DNA of 64,000 nt from Chthoniobacteraceae bacterium (GTDB taxonomy: Bacteria > Verrucomicrobiota > Verrucomicrobiia > Chthoniobacterales > Chthoniobacteraceae). The position numbers were made by a program, and so were the translations under genes. Of the stretch, positions 37,342 through 63,320 are shown in pieces; position 1 is the first letter of the stretch, and each line of letters opens with the position of its first letter. The DNA is taken from assembly GCA_028293625.1 (NCBI GenBank), contig JAQGOL010000010.1:1-64000 (forward strand), given 5' to 3'. The notes under the pieces were generated by a model. That model was not told the DNA's origin. It saw only the letters and a program-made list of their open reading frames with translations, and ran no database searches.

Positions 37342-39102
37342 CTACATCCGCTCCGGCACGGCGATGCCGAGCAAGTCCAGACCGCGCGCCAAAACCTTGG
37401 CGGTGACCTTGCAAAGCGCCAGCCGCATCGCGCGCACCGCAGGTTCCGCCTTCAACACCGGGCACGCTTCAAAGAAACCGTGAAAGGTGGACGCCAGCTC
37501 AAAGAGATAGTTGGCAAGCACGTTGGGTCGAAAATCGACCAACACCTGCGGCAGAACTTCTCCAAAAAGTAGAAGTTTTTTAACCAGCGCGATTTCCGCG
37601 GGTTCAGAAAGCGAGATCACCAGACTCTCCTCGCCTGCGGGCTCCAGCGCGGCTTTGCGGAAGATTGCCTGGATGCGCACGTAGCTATACATGAGATAAG
37701 GGGCGGTGTTGCCTTGCAGGCTGAGCATCTTATCCCACGAGAAAACGTAATCGCTTTGCCGGCTCGGCAGCAGGTCGGCGTACTTCACCGACCCGAGCCC
37801 CACGATCGTGGCAATCTCGCGTTGCTCGATTTCCGGCATCAACGGATTTTTCTCCGCGATGATCTTCAGGGCGCGCTCTTCGGCCTCATCCAAAAGGTCA
37901 ACGAGCCGGATTGTCTCTCCGCTGCGCGTTTTAAATGGCTTGTTGTCATCGCCCAGGATCGAGCCAAACCAGACATGCGCGAGCCGCGTTTTGGCGGCCA
38001 GCTCCGGCTGCCAACGCTCGAAAATGGTGAAGAACTGCCTGAAATGGAGCTGCTGGCGGCCGTCCGTCACATAAAGAATCTCATCCGGCTTCCACGTTTC
38101 AAACCGGTATTGGAGCGTGGCGAGATCCGTGGTCGTATAATTGGCGGCGCCGTCCGCTTTTTGCACGATGGCTGGGATATCGGTCCATTGCCCGTCGCGC
38201 TGGATGAGAAACGGGTCTTCCTTCTCCGGCAAACGATGGTCGGAAAGGACACAGAGCGCTCCCTGGCTTTCAACCGCGATGCCGCGTTCGCGCAATTCCG
38301 AAACCACCGGGCCAAGCCGCGGATTGTAAAAGCTCTCGCCAAGCGTCGCGTCGAATCTGACGCCAAGCCTGCTGTAAACCGTATCAAACTGCGCCTGGGA
38401 AAGGCGGATCATCTGTTTCCAAAGCGCGAGGTTTTCCTCATCGCCGCCCTGAAGTTTGACGAGCTCCTGCCGGACACGGTCAAGGGTGGCCGGATCTTCT
38501 TTGCACCGGACGCTGATCAGTTTGTAGATACGCTCCATTTCGCTGAGCGGATCCGCTTCAAGCGCTTCCTGATTCAGCTCGCTCTTCCAGCCGACCAGCA
38601 ACATGCCAAACTGCGTGCCCCAATCGCCGATATGATTGTCGCGCACCACATCGTGGCCGATAAAGGTGGCGATCCGGGCCAGCGAATCACCGAGAATGGT
38701 GGAGCGGATATGGCCGACATGCATCGGCTTGGCGACATTGGGTGAACTGAAATCGACTACGATTTTTTTAATCCGCGAAGGCAACGGCACTCCAAGCCGC
38801 TCATCCCTGATCAACAATGCCAATTGATTCGCCAGGAAATCGGGCAACAGCCGGAAATTGATGAACCCGGCGCCCGCAATTTGTGGCGCCTCGCAGAGGC
38901 CGTCCACATCCAGTTTCTCAATAATCTGTTGAGCAAGCTGGCGCGGGTTGGCGCGCTGCTGTTTTGCCAGGATCATGGCCACGTTGGTCTGATAATCGCC
39001 AAACCGCGAATCGGCCGTCGGGGTCACCTGTGGCTCAAGCTCCGCGATACCGGCGATGGCCACGCGGATTCTGGATTCTAAAAGAGATTGGATGGTTTCC
39101 AT
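37342..39102 (-). CDS. argS: Arginine--tRNA ligase
   Basis: The protein has 586 residues, typical for class Ia ArgRS (EC 6.1.1.19). An N-terminal Add-1 tRNA D-loop domain is followed by the HIGH-type motif as KPMHVGHIRSTILGDSLAR, then NHIGDWGTQFGMLL. Further family signatures are ANYTTTDLATLQYR, VTDGRQQLHFRQFF and KTRSGETIRLVDLLDEA in the KMSKS-equivalent region, which is often degenerate in ArgRS. The anticodon-binding DALR domain ends with RLALCKVTAKVLARGLDLLGI, the usual C terminus. It converges with the MBL-fold gene. Confidence 0.97.
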   Translation of the reverse strand: METIQSLLESRIRVAIAGIAELEPQVTPTADSRFGDYQTNVAMILAKQQRANPRQLAQQIIEKLDVDGLCEAPQIAGAGFINFRLLPDFLANQLALLIRDERLGVPLPSRIKKIVVDFSSPNVAKPMHVGHIRSTILGDSLARIATFIGHDVVRDNHIGDWGTQFGMLLVGWKSELNQEALEADPLSEMERIYKLISVRCKEDPATLDRVRQELVKLQGGDEENLALWKQMIRLSQAQFDTVYSRLGVRFDATLGESFYNPRLGPVVSELRERGIAVESQGALCVLSDHRLPEKEDPFLIQRDGQWTDIPAIVQKADGAANYTTTDLATLQYRFETWKPDEILYVTDGRQQLHFRQFFTIFERWQPELAAKTRLAHVWFGSILGDDNKPFKTRSGETIRLVDLLDEAEERALKIIAEKNPLMPEIEQREIATIVGLGSVKYADLLPSRQSDYVFSWDKMLSLQGNTAPYLMYSYVRIQAIFRKAALEPAGEESLVISLSEPAEIALVKKLLLFGEVLPQVLVDFRPNVLANYLFELASTFHGFFEACPVLKAEPAVRAMRLALCKVTAKVLARGLDLLGIAVPERM

Positions 39103-39217: not shown

Positions 39218-39688
39218 CTACGCTTTGCCGGGCGACGTGCTTTCAAAAATGGCGAGGATTTCCTCCGCCGAACCGGCCGTGCCGAGACGCTCGCGTACGG
39301 AGCGGTCATTGAGAAATTTTGCGATGGCAGCCAGGGTGCGCAGGTGCGTCTGGAACTGGTCTTTGGGGACCACAAAAAGCACGATGAACCGGACCGGGGC
39401 GTTATCAAGGGAATCGAATTCGATCCCTTTGCTGGAGCGGCCAAAAGCGGCCACTACCTGGGTAACGCGGTCGGATGAGGCGTGCGGGATGGCAATACCG
39501 AAGCCAATTCCCGTGCTCATGGTTTCTTCGCGCTGACGCAGAGCAGCGAGGACGACATCGCGGTCGACAGGTTTGATTTGGTCCCGGCTAACAAGAAGGT
39601 CGACCAGCTCCACAATGGCTGACCACCTTTCTGTCGCGGTCATCTCTGGGATGATTTGATCGACTGAAAGTAAGTTACCGAGAGTCAT
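39218..39688 (-). CDS. PTS fructose/nitrogen-type EIIA domain protein
   Basis: ATG 39688 gives 156 residues and starts MTLGNLLSVDQIIPEM, the common start of stand-alone EIIA-Fru/PtsN domains. The ORF continues upstream to 39778 but that part has no domain character. The phospho-acceptor His lies in GIAIPHASSD. Conserved features include LLVSRDQIKPVDRDVVLAAL, RREETMSTGIG and a final helix. Single-domain IIA proteins of this type usually act in regulation, not sugar transport. No EIIB/EIIC permease is nearby. The gene is divergent from glgA, with about 135 bases between starts, so a link to glycogen synthesis is plausible but unproven. Confidence 0.9.
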   Translation of the reverse strand: MTLGNLLSVDQIIPEMTATERWSAIVELVDLLVSRDQIKPVDRDVVLAALRQREETMSTGIGFGIAIPHASSDRVTQVVAAFGRSSKGIEFDSLDNAPVRFIVLFVVPKDQFQTHLRTLAAIAKFLNDRSVRERLGTAGSAEEILAIFESTSPGKA

Positions 39689-39823
39689 TCGTTGAGCGCG
39701 TGGCCGAGGGTCAAGGTCCGCCAATGTAGCCGCCCGAGTTAAAGTGAAAAGAGCAAAGTGCCTCTCAAAAGCATGCACTTTTGGCTTTCTCTGCTCGGAT
39801 GCTAAACGACAGTTTGAATCCAG

Positions 39824-41263
39824 ATGAAAATTCTCTTCGCCGGCAGTGAATTAACCCCCTTCGCACGCACAGGCGGACTTGGGGATGTCCTCGATGCATT
39901 GCCGGCCGCGCTGGCTGAACGCGGCCATGAAGTGAGCGTCGTGCTCCCCTGTTATAGAGGGCTGCGCGAAGATCCGCGCCTGGGCGTCCGCACCACCGGC
40001 GTCCAAATCACCGTGCAGGTCGGCGCAAAACGTCTCGATGCCGAGATCCTCCAAGGCGAAGCTCCCAATGGTGTGCAGGTTTTTCTCGTCCGCCGTGACG
40101 AATATTTTGATCGCTCGGGTCTGTATGGCTTTGACGGACGCGATTACGGCGATAACGCCGAACGATTTATTTATTTTTCCAAAGCCGTCGTCGAATTGGC
40201 GCGACGGGTTCTGCCGCCTCCGCAGATTTTGCACGTGCACGATTGGCAGGCGGCGCTTGTCCCGGCGCTGATCAAGGAACGCGCATTGCCATTCAAAACC
40301 GTCCTGACCATTCACAACCTCGCTTACCAGGGGAGCTTTTGGGGACTCGATTTCGGACTGACAAATCTGCCCGGCGATTATTTCTCGGAAAAGGGAGTCG
40401 AATTTTACGGCAACCTTAACCTGCTAAAGGGGGGAATCGTTTTTGCCGATCAGATCACTACCGTCAGCGAACGCTATGCGCGCGAGATCCAGACGCCCGA
40501 GTATGGCTGCGGACTTGATCCGGTGCTCCGGGAAAAAAATGGCGCTCTCTCCGGCATTCTCAACGGCGCGGATGCCCATATATGGAATCCTGAAACGGAT
40601 ACCTTTATTCCAGCCCATTTCAGCAGCACCGATCTGTCGGGGAAGGCGGTTTGCAAAAAGGCGCTTCTAACCGAACTGAACCTCGATCCGGATCCCAGGG
40701 GACCAGTTATTGCCATGGTCTCGCGCCTGGCTGAACAAAAAGGAATCGATCTGTTGCTCCCGATCATCGACCGGCTTCTCTCCGACGATGTTCGCCTGGT
40801 GATCCTCGGGGAGGGCGATACCGGGTATGAACGGGAACTCATGATCGCAAGCAAACGGCACGCGGGCCGTTTTTCGTTTCTGAAAGTCCTCGATGAACGC
40901 CTTGCCCATCTCATCGAGGCCGGCGCGGATATCGCACTTGTTCCATCCCATTTTGAACCGTGCGGTCTGAGCGCCATGTATTCGCTCAAATACGGCACCC
41001 TTCCCGTCGCCCGAGCGACGGGGGGACTGTTCCAGATTGTGCGCGATTACGATCCAGGGACCCATTCCGGAACCGGCTTCCTCTTTTTTGATTATCAATC
41101 CGAAGCCTTCTACGACTCCATTCTCCGCGCCAAACAGGTATTTGAAAATTCAGCTGAATGGCAAAAACTGATGGAGCGCGCAATGGGATCCGATTTTTCG
41201 TGGGCCAGGGCGGCGGAAAGTTACGAGGCCGTTTACGAACGCGCCTTGAAAGAAGAAGTGTGA
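39824..41263 (+). CDS. glgA: Glycogen synthase (ADP-glucose type)
   Basis: At 479 residues this matches bacterial GlgA (EC 2.4.1.21, GT5), which extends alpha-1,4-glucan chains from ADP-glucose. The N-terminal lobe has the nucleotide-sugar motif TGGLGDVLDALPAALAERGH, here with Arg instead of the usual Lys before TGGLGD. HVHDWQAALVPALI, TIHNLAYQG and FADQITTVSERYAREI follow. The C-terminal lobe has GVLNGxD-like SGILNGADAHIWNPETD, VSRLAEQKGIDLL and PSHFEPCGLSAMYSLKYGTLPVARATGG. The gene ends 16 bases before the convergent Dabb gene stop region. Confidence 0.96.
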   Translation: MKILFAGSELTPFARTGGLGDVLDALPAALAERGHEVSVVLPCYRGLREDPRLGVRTTGVQITVQVGAKRLDAEILQGEAPNGVQVFLVRRDEYFDRSGLYGFDGRDYGDNAERFIYFSKAVVELARRVLPPPQILHVHDWQAALVPALIKERALPFKTVLTIHNLAYQGSFWGLDFGLTNLPGDYFSEKGVEFYGNLNLLKGGIVFADQITTVSERYAREIQTPEYGCGLDPVLREKNGALSGILNGADAHIWNPETDTFIPAHFSSTDLSGKAVCKKALLTELNLDPDPRGPVIAMVSRLAEQKGIDLLLPIIDRLLSDDVRLVILGEGDTGYERELMIASKRHAGRFSFLKVLDERLAHLIEAGADIALVPSHFEPCGLSAMYSLKYGTLPVARATGGLFQIVRDYDPGTHSGTGFLFFDYQSEAFYDSILRAKQVFENSAEWQKLMERAMGSDFSWARAAESYEAVYERALKEEV

Positions 41264-59980: not shown

Positions 59981-60379
59981 ATGGACTCCATCGAAAGATC
60001 CATCATCGTTGATACCTCGGCGGCCGAGGCATTCAGCACCTGGCTGCGCTTTGAGAACTGGCCCCACTTTCTTAAAGCCATTCGCACGGTACGCCGTCTG
60101 GATGAGTCAAAATTCCAACTCTTTATCGAGCGAGGCGGCAAAGAATATGAATCAGTCGTGGAACTCTCTCTTGTTATTCCCCCAACGCGCATTGCCTGGC
60201 GCACGGTTTCCGGAGTGGACAAGTCGGGGGTCGTTTGCTTTGAAGCGCTGCCTGATGGCAGGTCCAAAGTGAGCTTCAAAATGAAATATTTCCATGAAGC
60301 CGGTTGGAATCATCCCCACATTCTGGCGCAACGCCTGGAATCCCACCTCGCCTGCTTTAAAAAGTTCGTCGAAAACTAA
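59981..60379 (+). CDS. SRPBCC-family protein (polyketide cyclase/dehydrase-like)
   Basis: The protein has 132 residues. It starts MDSIERSIIVDTSAAEAFST and contains RFENWPHFLKAIRTVRRLDE, ESVVELSLVIPPTRIAWRTV and PDGRSKVSFKMKYF. This is the START-like helix-grip fold of SRPBCC/COG5637-type proteins, which form a hydrophobic cavity for lipids or aromatics. A small-ligand or stress role is typical; no partner is adjacent. The final helix (LESHLACFKKFVEN) is the lid of the family. Confidence 0.9.
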   Translation: MDSIERSIIVDTSAAEAFSTWLRFENWPHFLKAIRTVRRLDESKFQLFIERGGKEYESVVELSLVIPPTRIAWRTVSGVDKSGVVCFEALPDGRSKVSFKMKYFHEAGWNHPHILAQRLESHLACFKKFVEN

Positions 60380-60505: not shown

Positions 60506-62296
60506 ATGACGATCCCCGCTGCGGCACGGCCGGTGAGTGATGATGGAACAGTGGTGATCGTAGCCCACCGGGGGCCTCACGATTTTGTATGGGAAGCGGG
60601 CCAATGGGTCGCCAAAGCTTCCACTAACGGACTCGTCAGCATGATCGAACCGCTCGCGCGCCAGCCCAATGTGGCATGGTTTTGCTGCGTTTCAGAACCG
60701 CCGGGAAGCGAATCCGAGCGAGATGCCCTTTATACCACCGCCAACGATCAGACCGATTCGGATCTTAATGTCGTGCCCGTGCCGTTGCCAGCAGGCATTT
60801 ATCACGAGTATTACGGCGTTATCAGCAACGAGATCCTCTGGAGGCTTCACCATCATCTCGTTAACCAATTCGGATACGCTCAGCTGGATCAAAAAACGCA
60901 TCGCGCGTGGGACTCTTATCTCGAAGCCAACCGCCGATTGGCCGAAGCCATCCGCGCCACGGAAATTCCGGTCCGCGCATTCCTGATCCAGGATTATCAT
61001 CTTTATCCGCTGGCTGAAATGTTACGGCGCCATTTTCCGGAGACGCCGATCCTCCATTTTATTCACATTCCCTTTCCCGAGCCTGCCATCCTCAAACTGC
61101 TCCCCAAGGCATGGCGCGAGACCCTCTTGCGCGGATTGCTCGGATGCAACGTCATCGGCCTTCAGACCGCCGCCGATGTGCGCTCTTTCCTGGCGTGCTG
61201 CCAGGAGATCCTTGGCGCCACCGTTGATCTTCACCGAAGCACGGTCATCCTCAGTTCGGGCCGCACCGTGCGGGTCCGGGCATTCCCGGCAAGCATTGAC
61301 CCCAAGGCGCTTAAAACCCTTCAGCAAAGTGCCGAGACAGCCGAGGCCCGGCAACAGCTCGCCTCCAGCATGGGCGAACTGAGCATCATTCGCGTCGATC
61401 GGCTTGATCCTAGCAAAAACCAGATCATCGGATTCAATGCGTTTGAGCGGCTGCTCGACCTCCACCCGCAACTCATCGGGCATGTTCGCTTTCTCGCCTT
61501 TTTAATCCCTTCCCGTACCGATTTAACGGTCTACCTCGCATATCGGGATGCCGTCTATCGCGAGATCGAGCGGATCAATTCCCGTTTTTCCCAGACCTGC
61601 GGATTTAATCCGATCGAGGTCTTTTACACCAGCGATCGCACCCAGGCTCTCGCCGCCATGGAATCGTGCGATGTGTTCCTGGTTAACTCCGGCAAGGATG
61701 GTATGAATCTCTTCGTCAAGGAGTGGGCATTGGTCTCTCATAAACCGGGCGTCCTCGTTGTCTCAGAAACAGTAGGTGTCGCATTGGAAACCCGAGCGCT
61801 CTCCTTGCAGGTCTGCGCGCTCGATGTCGAAGGGATAGCCAAAGCATTCGCCGAAGCGCTCTTTATGCCAGCGGATGCGCGCTCCGCATGGCTTTCCCCC
61901 CTTCGCGCGAACATTGAAAAATGGACCGCCCACGACTGGCTTGTCGCGCAATTGCGGGAACTGGAGATCACGCTTCCCGAGCCGGCGCCGTTTCCCGCGC
62001 ATCTCAAACCAGCCACTCAAAAGGGCGTAGTGGAATGGGAACTGCGGGTCCTCAATAAGGAAGGCATTCACGCCCGGCCCGCGGCTGCTTTTGTTCGATG
62101 CGCCCGCAGTTTTCTCTGCGAGATCGAGATCATCAAAGGCGGCACCAGCTTCTCGGCCAAAAGCATCCTCTCGGTGCTGACTGCCAATCTCAACCGCGAC
62201 ACGCACTTTATCCTGCGGGCTTCCGGTGTCGACGCAACGGCTGCCGCCGAGCAGATCCGCCAGCTGCTTGAAAGCTTCGAGCACGAGGAGGGCTAA
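60506..62296 (+). CDS. otsA: Trehalose-6-phosphate synthase fused to an HPr phosphocarrier domain
   Basis: ATG 60506 gives 596 residues. Residues 1-500 are a GT20 OtsA-type synthase: TVVIVAHRGPHDF near the start, WDSYLEANRRLAEAIRATEI, LIQDYHLYPLAEMLRRHFPE, HFIHIPFPEPAILKLLP, IRVDRLDPSKNQIIGFNAFE, and LVNSGKDGMNLFVKEWALVS in the UDP-glucose lobe. The usual phosphatase OtsB is not fused. Residues about 508-596 are a full HPr domain. The phospho-His is H522 in NKEGIHARPAAAF and the regulatory-type Ser is S553 in SFSAKSILSVL, exactly 31 residues apart as in H15/S46 of HPr. The last helix (AAEQIRQLLESF) is also present. This joins trehalose synthesis to a PTS phosphocarrier. Confidence 0.9.
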   Translation: MTIPAAARPVSDDGTVVIVAHRGPHDFVWEAGQWVAKASTNGLVSMIEPLARQPNVAWFCCVSEPPGSESERDALYTTANDQTDSDLNVVPVPLPAGIYHEYYGVISNEILWRLHHHLVNQFGYAQLDQKTHRAWDSYLEANRRLAEAIRATEIPVRAFLIQDYHLYPLAEMLRRHFPETPILHFIHIPFPEPAILKLLPKAWRETLLRGLLGCNVIGLQTAADVRSFLACCQEILGATVDLHRSTVILSSGRTVRVRAFPASIDPKALKTLQQSAETAEARQQLASSMGELSIIRVDRLDPSKNQIIGFNAFERLLDLHPQLIGHVRFLAFLIPSRTDLTVYLAYRDAVYREIERINSRFSQTCGFNPIEVFYTSDRTQALAAMESCDVFLVNSGKDGMNLFVKEWALVSHKPGVLVVSETVGVALETRALSLQVCALDVEGIAKAFAEALFMPADARSAWLSPLRANIEKWTAHDWLVAQLRELEITLPEPAPFPAHLKPATQKGVVEWELRVLNKEGIHARPAAAFVRCARSFLCEIEIIKGGTSFSAKSILSVLTANLNRDTHFILRASGVDATAAAEQIRQLLESFEHEEG

Positions 62297-62525: not shown

Positions 62526-63320
62526 ATGACGACTCTGCTTTCATCTCCGCCCGCCTCACACAATATCGTCTCGGAACTCCTTGCCCCGCTGCTTGAAACC
62601 GCACAGGAATCCGAAAGCCTGATTGCGAGCCAGCATCCCGTGCTGATTGGCAATCAGCGCATTGAGATTCCCAAGTTCATGCTTCTTGGGGCGCGGGGAG
62701 GCGGCAAACCGATCCGGCTCGCGCTCTTTGCCGGACTCGATGCGGGGCTGCCTGAAAGCATCATTGCGCTGGCCAGGCTGCTGTTTGAATTTGAACTCAA
62801 TCCGGCCCTGGCCCGCGATTATGCGCTCTTTGCTTATCCCGTGGTTAACCTGCCGGGCTTTGACGAAAACCCGCTGCCGTTGCGTGCATTTGAAGGGCGC
62901 TATCGCAAAGAAACAACCGATGCAGACGTTGAGTTCTTCAAAGGCGAACTGCGCAAATGGTTCTTTGATGGAATGATCACACTTCGAACCGATCTGAATG
63001 CCGAAGGGTTTTATGCCACGGTGCGCAGCGAGGTTCTCGCCCGCGAAGTCGTTGAACCGGCCGTTGCCACTGCGGGCAAAACAATTCCGCTCCATGAAAG
63101 CCCGATTAGAATCCGCCCGTCGGACCGTCACTCGCGACTTTCCGATTACGTCCAGGGGAGGCTCGCTCCACCGGCCGATATTCGTCCCTATCCGTTCGAG
63201 ATTGAACTATTTGCACCGGGCCGCATTCCGACAGAAGATCGTGTGCGGGGGCTTTTTGTGGCGGTGCATGAGATTCTGCGGCATTACCGGGACATGATTT
63301 CCCACGCGCAGAACTTATAA
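62526..63320 (+). CDS. M14/AstE-like protein with degenerate metal site
   Basis: The protein has 264 residues. The fold signature of M14 carboxypeptidase/succinylglutamate-desuccinylase-like proteins is partly visible. LALFAGLDAGLPES aligns with the HxxE metal motif (GxHGDEP), and AYPVVNLPGFDEN aligns with the NPxGF substrate motif. In this alignment the first His is Asp, the Glu is Leu, and the later His ligand (DLH) is DLN, so the three zinc ligands appear lost. A pseudoenzyme or a different chemistry is likely. The start MTTLLSSPPASHNIV is the only ATG in a suitable place. Confidence 0.75.
   Translation: MTTLLSSPPASHNIVSELLAPLLETAQESESLIASQHPVLIGNQRIEIPKFMLLGARGGGKPIRLALFAGLDAGLPESIIALARLLFEFELNPALARDYALFAYPVVNLPGFDENPLPLRAFEGRYRKETTDADVEFFKGELRKWFFDGMITLRTDLNAEGFYATVRSEVLAREVVEPAVATAGKTIPLHESPIRIRPSDRHSRLSDYVQGRLAPPADIRPYPFEIELFAPGRIPTEDRVRGLFVAVHEILRHYRDMISHAQNL

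Follow-up and report, generated by a model that had tools for sequence, protein, structure and literature searches.

A GT20 protein of the trehalose-6-phosphate synthase kind with a C-terminal HPr domain in Chthoniobacteraceae: a possible PTS switch in cis

Introduction

In ordinary HPr, His15 is phosphorylated by enzyme I (EI), while Ser46 is the target of HPr kinase (HprK). Besides its role as a phosphocarrier, HPr is known as a free regulator, and extra HPr proteins can be found beside a complete ptsH, as is the case of the paralogues NPr and Crh, both of them free proteins and the latter devoid of His15. Glycogen phosphorylase, a GT35 enzyme, has a GT-B-type fold. It has been reported that this glucosyltransferase is bound and regulated by HPr in E. 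coli (available text of PMC11046441 and PMC5320558; structures 9s8k and 9s8b). NPr, for its part, has been called regulatory, and HPr also occurs as a domain of larger proteins such as FruB/FPr, DhaM and the EIIA-HPr-EI multiphosphoryl transfer proteins, in which its partners are EIIA and EI domains; the fusions described there join HPr to PTS domains, some of which are encoded together with dihydroxyacetone kinase genes (available text of PMC2405797). Concerning trehalose synthesis, a mycobacterial OtsA is inhibited allosterically by 2-phosphoglycerate, as stated in the available part of PMC6879718.

Here we describe a gene encoding an HPr domain fused to a GT20 glycosyltransferase, found in a Chthoniobacteraceae bacterium (GCA_028293625.1) within the window, that is, the whole stretch of 64,000 nucleotides analysed (contig JAQGOL010000010.1, positions 1 to 64,000). 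Like the HPr-glycogen phosphorylase pair, the arrangement would bring HPr to act directly on a GT-B-type glucosyltransferase, which in E. coli is one of storage-glucan metabolism; in the E. coli system, however, HPr is free, whereas here it is fused to GT20 and comes from a second HPr class. As in the multiphosphoryl transfer proteins, HPr is a domain of a larger polypeptide, but the partner is a glycosyltransferase. Like NPr and Crh, it is an extra HPr beside a complete ptsH, and unlike Crh it has a His15 equivalent. The first-pass annotation of the window knew of no described system with this architecture; in agreement with it, no prior description of HPr fused to GT20 was found in the text available from searches of open PubMed Central papers.

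Architecture of the fusion gene

The features of the locus are collected in Table 1. The frame reads without interruption through 596 codons and a stop, and both domains are matched over nearly their full profiles: PF00982 reaches 317.1 bits (cut-off 32.5) over profile positions 3-472 of 473, and PF00381 reaches 69.3 bits (cut-off 23) over positions 3-80 of 81, with the HPr family model TIGR01003 at 58.6 bits (cut-off 47.9). The first-pass annotation had read a full GT20 synthase followed by a complete HPr fold at residues 508-596, with H522 and S553 spaced as H15 and S46; this reading holds, as the strong HPr match falls within that stretch and the two residues lie 31 positions apart, exactly as in HPr, with R524 and P525 also present. 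The protein consists of GT20 and HPr only, no EIIA or EI domain being detected with Pfam at E 0.01.

Table 1. Coordinates of the fusion gene, its parts and its neighbours in the window
Feature	Position	Strand	Evidence
tps-hpr fusion gene	60506..62296	+	single open frame, 596 aa; GT20 and HPr in like order in three other copies
GT20 (trehalose-6-phosphate synthase-like) domain, residues 16-487	60551..61966	+	PF00982 E 2.5e-94; fold shared with solved GT20 structures
Interdomain linker, about residues 488-505	61967..62020	+	pLDDT <50 at 491-504; dN 0.53-1.69 between copies
HPr domain, residues 506-596	62021..62293	+	PF00381 at 511-589, E 2.9e-19; model pLDDT 91.0; Z 17.5 to 3lfg_B
His522 codon (H15 equivalent), then Ala523-Arg524-Pro525	62069..62071	+	H15, R17, P18 in 4/4 fusions
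Ser553 codon (S46 equivalent), within Lys-Ser-Ile-Leu	62162..62164	+	present in 4/4 fusions
AstE/AspA-like gene without zinc-ligand motifs	62526..63320	+	downstream of fusion; no Pfam match at E 0.01; relative also downstream in G139
Polyketide cyclase-like gene, upstream neighbour with no shown link	59981..60379	+	PF03364, PF10604

A frameshift or a chimera joining two separate genes is very unlikely, because three further copies (termed C26, G139 and G158 below) keep the same domain order, and a sequencing or assembly artefact is ruled out by the presence of four copies in three genomes. The identity as a trehalose-6-phosphate synthase is putative. The fold and the kept residues are in its favour, but the OtsA equivalog model TIGR02400 gives 292.9 bits, below its cut-off of 564.85, and hence the label rests on residues and fold. 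On these grounds, rather than by equivalog match, the fusion is best classed as a predicted GT20 enzyme of the trehalose-6-phosphate synthase kind.

Origin of the HPr domain and its phospho-sites

The fused domain was compared with a set of 59 distinct HPr domains taken from 77 matches (those family members whose DNA was fetched, not all), which comprises 30 ptsH products, 20 second HPr proteins, the four fusions, two fructose-type fusions, one further HPr of the same genome and two Legionella proteins. The four fusion domains are monophyletic (UFBoot 100), and together with the second HPr proteins they form a clade apart from ptsH (UFBoot 99), within which their exact placement has weak support (38-86). 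The fused HPr therefore groups with the second, non-ptsH class and not with the ptsH that lies beside hprK, which rules out canonical ptsH as its source. Since the fusion domains form one clade inside the second class, the fusion looks like the product of one capture.

The equivalents of H15, R17, P18 and S46 are kept in all four fusions, which also show complete or almost complete identity in the phospho-His loop and around Ser46, while the rest of the domain varies. Ser553 is preceded by Lys in every copy and hprK is encoded in the genome; at this preceding position 45, Lys is also present in 30/30 ptsH and in 0/20 second HPr proteins, 19 of which have Ser46. Position 49 is Gly in 30/30 ptsH, Ser or Ala in the fusions and acidic in all 20 free second HPr proteins, a possible class mark of regulatory HPr that is itself without prior description. 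Among the cases scanned, the second HPr adjoins an SIS+CBS protein in G000 (the genome of the window), G124 and G078, and lies near a GT4 glycosyltransferase in G000, G078 and G032, several other regions having different neighbours.

Folded alone with three other HPr rows, the HPr part gave a model (pLDDT 91.0) that matches 3lfg_B with rmsd 1.5 over 89 aligned residues, with helices predicted at 18-29, after His17 (equal to H522), and at 49-54, after Ser48 (equal to S553). It also superposes on 9s8k_G, the HPr found with E. coli glycogen phosphorylase (Z 16.5, rmsd 0.8, 83 aligned), a likeness that concerns the HPr fold. A further divergent HPr is encoded in G000 at L014 11396-11800 (-), about 19 kb from the C26 fusion; it scores 65.8 bits to the HPr family model and has HLRP instead of HARP.

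An intact HPr domain might serve as an ordinary phosphocarrier, from EI to EIIA, replacing an absent free second HPr. This would fit G139 and G158, in which the fusion is the sole HPr found besides ptsH; these genomes, however, are 86 and 79% complete, respectively. In addition, G000 keeps a free second HPr alongside its two fusions, G023 has neither a second HPr nor a fusion, and a pure carrier would have no need of the attached enzyme, so that we regard such a role as very unlikely.

PTS components encoded in the genome

The first-pass annotation had pointed to ptsI and hprK as genes to look for, and both were found, each over its NCBIfam cut-off. They flank ptsH in an hprK, ptsH, ptsI row on contig C31, where PtsI scores 642 bits with the enzyme I model (cut-off 341.7) and HprK, encoded by one gene, scores 352.4 bits (cut-off 240). 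A second EI (522.4 bits, NCBIfam) is part of an EIIA-HPr-EI protein on C27, which adjoins EIIBC and a PfkB-type kinase and belongs to a fructose PTS, and a third match to the shared PEP-utilizer domain lies in a 1052 aa frame on C31. As two enzyme I proteins, HprK and a fructose PTS are encoded, a phosphate donor for H522 is evidently present in the genome, and its phosphate would presumably reach H522. No studies of PTS regulation in Verrucomicrobiota were found in narrow searches of open PubMed Central papers.

The genome codes for four EIIA-2 domains, and one of these is the product of a PtsN-like gene within the window (39218-39778, minus strand). This gene stands beside argS (37342-39102) and adjoins a divergent starch/glycogen synthase-like gene (39824-41263).

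Copies and distribution of the fusion

The G000 genome (6.83 Mb, 43 contigs, 96.4% complete) contains six HPr domains and two GT20 domains by profile search, and both GT20 domains are within fusions: the window copy, on contig C14, and a second one on contig C26 (123490-125265), 76% identical to it. In the samples of Verrucomicrobiota genomes covered, the combination of GT20 and PF00381, for which the first-pass annotation had proposed a search, was found in three genomes, all within one family. The fusion is present in 3 of the 40 family genomes, with two copies in G000 and one each in G139, of the same genus as G000, and G158, the four copies being 56-76% identical in pairs. G120 also passed the search threshold among these 40 genomes, but matches the GT20 part only. 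Among the matches listed for the order sample (197 genomes), the fusion occurs in the same three genomes, and G119 and G170 have a close GT20 without HPr.

The phylum sample (387 genomes, E up to 1e-70) and the class sample (384 genomes, E up to 1e-80) gave a fusion match in G000 only; as neither yielded G139 or G158, these two genomes are evidently outside both samples. The order, phylum and class samples overlap, and the first few candidates per genome were scored, which makes the fusion count a lower bound. A scan of named genomes with two exact peptide patterns gave five loci, namely two unfused relatives, two Legionella HPr genes and one fusion, located on JAQGOK010000079.1 of Chthoniobacter sp. 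RYN_611 (a genus of Verrucomicrobiota) and corresponding to the G158 copy.

Outside chromosomes, 377 plasmid records match, all of them with less than 60% identity, and in 16 of them a single place spans 80% or more of the query. Two of the six plasmid proteins listed, H1 from Bradyrhizobium and H4 from Spirosoma, contain GT20, together with a trehalose phosphatase domain in H4, and no HPr was found beside GT20 in these two at E 1. With one protein query, no relative of the fusion was found in viral contigs, and in PHROGs one family of unknown function matches the GT20 part, over residues 100-479. In G132, G072 and G166, too, HPr lies within a long open frame. That of G132 was considered as another HPr fusion and rejected as a likely frame overrun, because its similarity to related proteins is confined to the HPr domain and the stretch immediately preceding it.

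The rarity and the scattered occurrence of the fusion would suit a chance joining of two domains, neutral or degrading and without function. This explanation is extremely improbable in our view, given that four copies in three genomes, 56-76% identical, keep the phospho-sites and show low dN/dS in the HPr part.

Catalytic residues and constraint in the GT20 part

By sequence, the nearest solved structure is 5lqd, the GDP-glucose-dependent OtsA of Streptomyces, and in the fold search 5lqd_A (Z 35.5, rmsd 3.2, 438 aligned) heads a GT20 group tied within 1 Z. The fusions share with OtsA of E. coli and Streptomyces venezuelae (5lqd) the common fold and most substrate contacts, and differ from it in the low identity to E. 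coli OtsA (28-31% in the four copies), in the score below the equivalog cut-off and in the possession of HPr. The contacts named in the available text of PMC6879718, at Arg, Tyr, Asp, His, Lys, Glu and DGMNL positions, are kept in the window copy, and the substrate contacts shared with E. coli OtsA, mapped by motif, are kept in the window, C26 and G158 copies. The base-binding residues of the GDP-glucose enzyme are named in the available part of PMC5247666.

At three of 33 OtsA positions compared, the window copy departs where OtsA, C26 and G158 agree: His replaces Asn ahead of the conserved Arg, Asn replaces Gly within the GG loop, and Phe replaces Val after DGMNL, all three in loops near the donor motifs. 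The second Gly of the GG pair, probably Gly39, is kept in this copy. Gly39 is described as absolutely conserved in the available part of PMC6879718. When positions identical in eight other aligned proteins, E. coli OtsA included, are considered, the window copy breaks three (G41N, E318D and P438A), C26 one, G158 none and G139 ten. In G139 the changes reach the DGMNL motif itself (D to E, M to I, N to S), and this copy has lost part of the donor motif. Because the window and G139 copies are changed in donor-side loops, at least one of the fusions may not be a working synthase. For trehalose phosphatase, G000 gave one partial match, at 27.3 bits against a cut-off of 27 and over 68 of 235 positions.

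Between copies, dN/dS ranges from 0.105 to 0.219 in the GT20 part (five of six pairs, dS being infinite in the other) and from 0.115 to 0.274 in the HPr part (all six pairs), values that are rough because dS is saturated; taken as such, they place both domains under apparent constraint. In relative rate tests of the GT20 part, two of the six outgroups show the window copy to change faster than C26 (chi-square about 8.3) and the remaining four give no clear difference (0.4-3.3), and in the HPr part no difference between these two copies was detected. G000 holds two fusions, of which the window copy seems the more diverged in its GT20 part. In the GT20 tree this copy groups with C26 (87) and not with G139; deep nodes are weak (12, 29 and 65) and the OtsA outgroup is very distant, and hence the single origin of the fusion rests on the HPr tree.

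Gene neighbourhoods and a possible regulatory GT20

In C26 and G158 the fusion lies 33 and 43 bases, respectively, behind an ABC ATPase gene that belongs to a sulfate-type operon, the G158 ATPase being read from the frame and not domain-scanned. At the sulfate loci L013 3712-11269 (contig C26) and L049 1167-7755, TPS-HPr lies directly behind the sulfate ABC transporter genes, an AstE-like gene with a zinc motif is among the genes, and cysK is present in C26. In the window and in G139, the fusion is followed by an AstE/AspA-like gene of the group without zinc ligands. AstE/AspA-like genes give 29 matches in 24 of the 40 family genomes; HGDE-type zinc motifs are kept in 18 of 23 aligned relatives and lost in five, two of which stand beside a TPS-HPr fusion. 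In G119 and G170, the unfused GT20 and a HAD hydrolase-like gene downstream of it overlap in their longest frames, the Pfam scan covering G119. At these loci (L022 812-1552 and L023 398-1186) the hydrolase-like gene is a candidate phosphatase partner.

The uneven loss of invariant positions, ten in G139 and three in the window copy as against one in C26 and none in G158, might be explained if GT20 were turning into a sensor or scaffold, with catalysis lost or altered in the window and G139 copies, which would act as HPr-bearing regulators binding a sugar nucleotide or sugar phosphate, while C26 stays an enzyme. The faster rate of the window copy with two outgroups, the phospho-site motif intact in these two copies and the neighbour of the zinc-ligand-less group beside the fusion in both genomes are consistent with such a change. 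However, the window copy keeps those donor and acceptor contacts, named in the available text of PMC6879718, that E. coli OtsA also has, the GT20 dN/dS stays low, four of six outgroups give no clear rate difference, and its closest relative in the GT20 tree is C26 instead of G139. We consider a regulatory GT20 rather improbable.

The linker and the relation between the two domains

The full-length model of the fusion, built with four sequences, has a pLDDT of 67.3 and a pTM of 0.60 and gives no reliable interdomain contact. The linker diverges fast; in the two pairs that allowed a dN/dS estimate for it, the values are 0.66 and 1.08. A poorly conserved linker predicted with low confidence is what would be expected of a flexible tether, and HPr might then be a docking tag that places the synthase near PTS complexes (enzyme I, HprK, EIIA or other), its phosphorylation having no effect on catalysis. 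The four EIIA-2 domains encoded, including the one in the window, would provide possible anchors, and MtlR and Rsd are among the known binding partners of HPr (available part of PMC5320558). On the other hand, the near identity of the phospho-His loop and Ser46 region in the four fusions points to phosphotransfer or to partners that read the phospho-site, and a mere tether seems to us unlikely.

A proposed mechanism

The reading that we prefer, and to which we give about an even chance of being right, is that the fused HPr is a cis-regulatory domain reporting PTS phosphorylation to a GT20 enzyme of the trehalose-6-phosphate synthase kind. According to this model, a regulatory HPr domain would have been captured from the second HPr of the family and would be carried in cis by the GT20 enzyme. 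Enzyme I would use PEP to phosphorylate His522, the tethered HPr would dock on the GT-B fold differently according to whether it is phosphorylated, and the altered docking would in turn set the rate of trehalose-6-phosphate formation. Ser553 might act, with less support, as a second input via HprK. In this way trehalose synthesis would come under the control of PTS phosphorylation, as the first-pass annotation had suggested. The regulation of glycogen phosphorylase by E. coli HPr, of which the fusion would be a single-chain counterpart, and the allosteric inhibition of a mycobacterial OtsA offer precedents for such a switch.

This is the best reading of the near-complete domains, their expected folds, the conserved phospho-sites, the grouping with the second HPr, the constraint, the EI and HprK genes and the kept substrate contacts. 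What counts against it are the loop changes in the window and G139 copies, the rarity of the fusion (3/40), the moderate quality of the full-length model, the OtsA cut-off that is missed and the single partial phosphatase match. The alternatives discussed above are placed in the order tether, regulatory GT20, plain carrier and chance fusion. A more specific proposal, possible but doubtful, is that the fusion is a new kind of PTS switch, acting in cis on the enzyme that forms the signalling sugar trehalose 6-phosphate, and that its duplication gave two forms, one behind the sulfate-uptake genes that works as the enzyme and one in the window that is diverging and may have become regulatory.

Significance

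The HPr-GT20 fusion suggests a direct connection between trehalose synthesis and the energy signal of the cell. While the known roles of HPr are those of a phosphocarrier and of a free regulator, the fused form gives a fixed one-to-one stoichiometry and represents a ready-made test object for HPr control of glucosyltransferases, a question that has just been reached by the 9s8k and 9s8b structures. If the proposed switch is true, PEP and the state of the PTS would be connected directly to trehalose 6-phosphate in Verrucomicrobiota.
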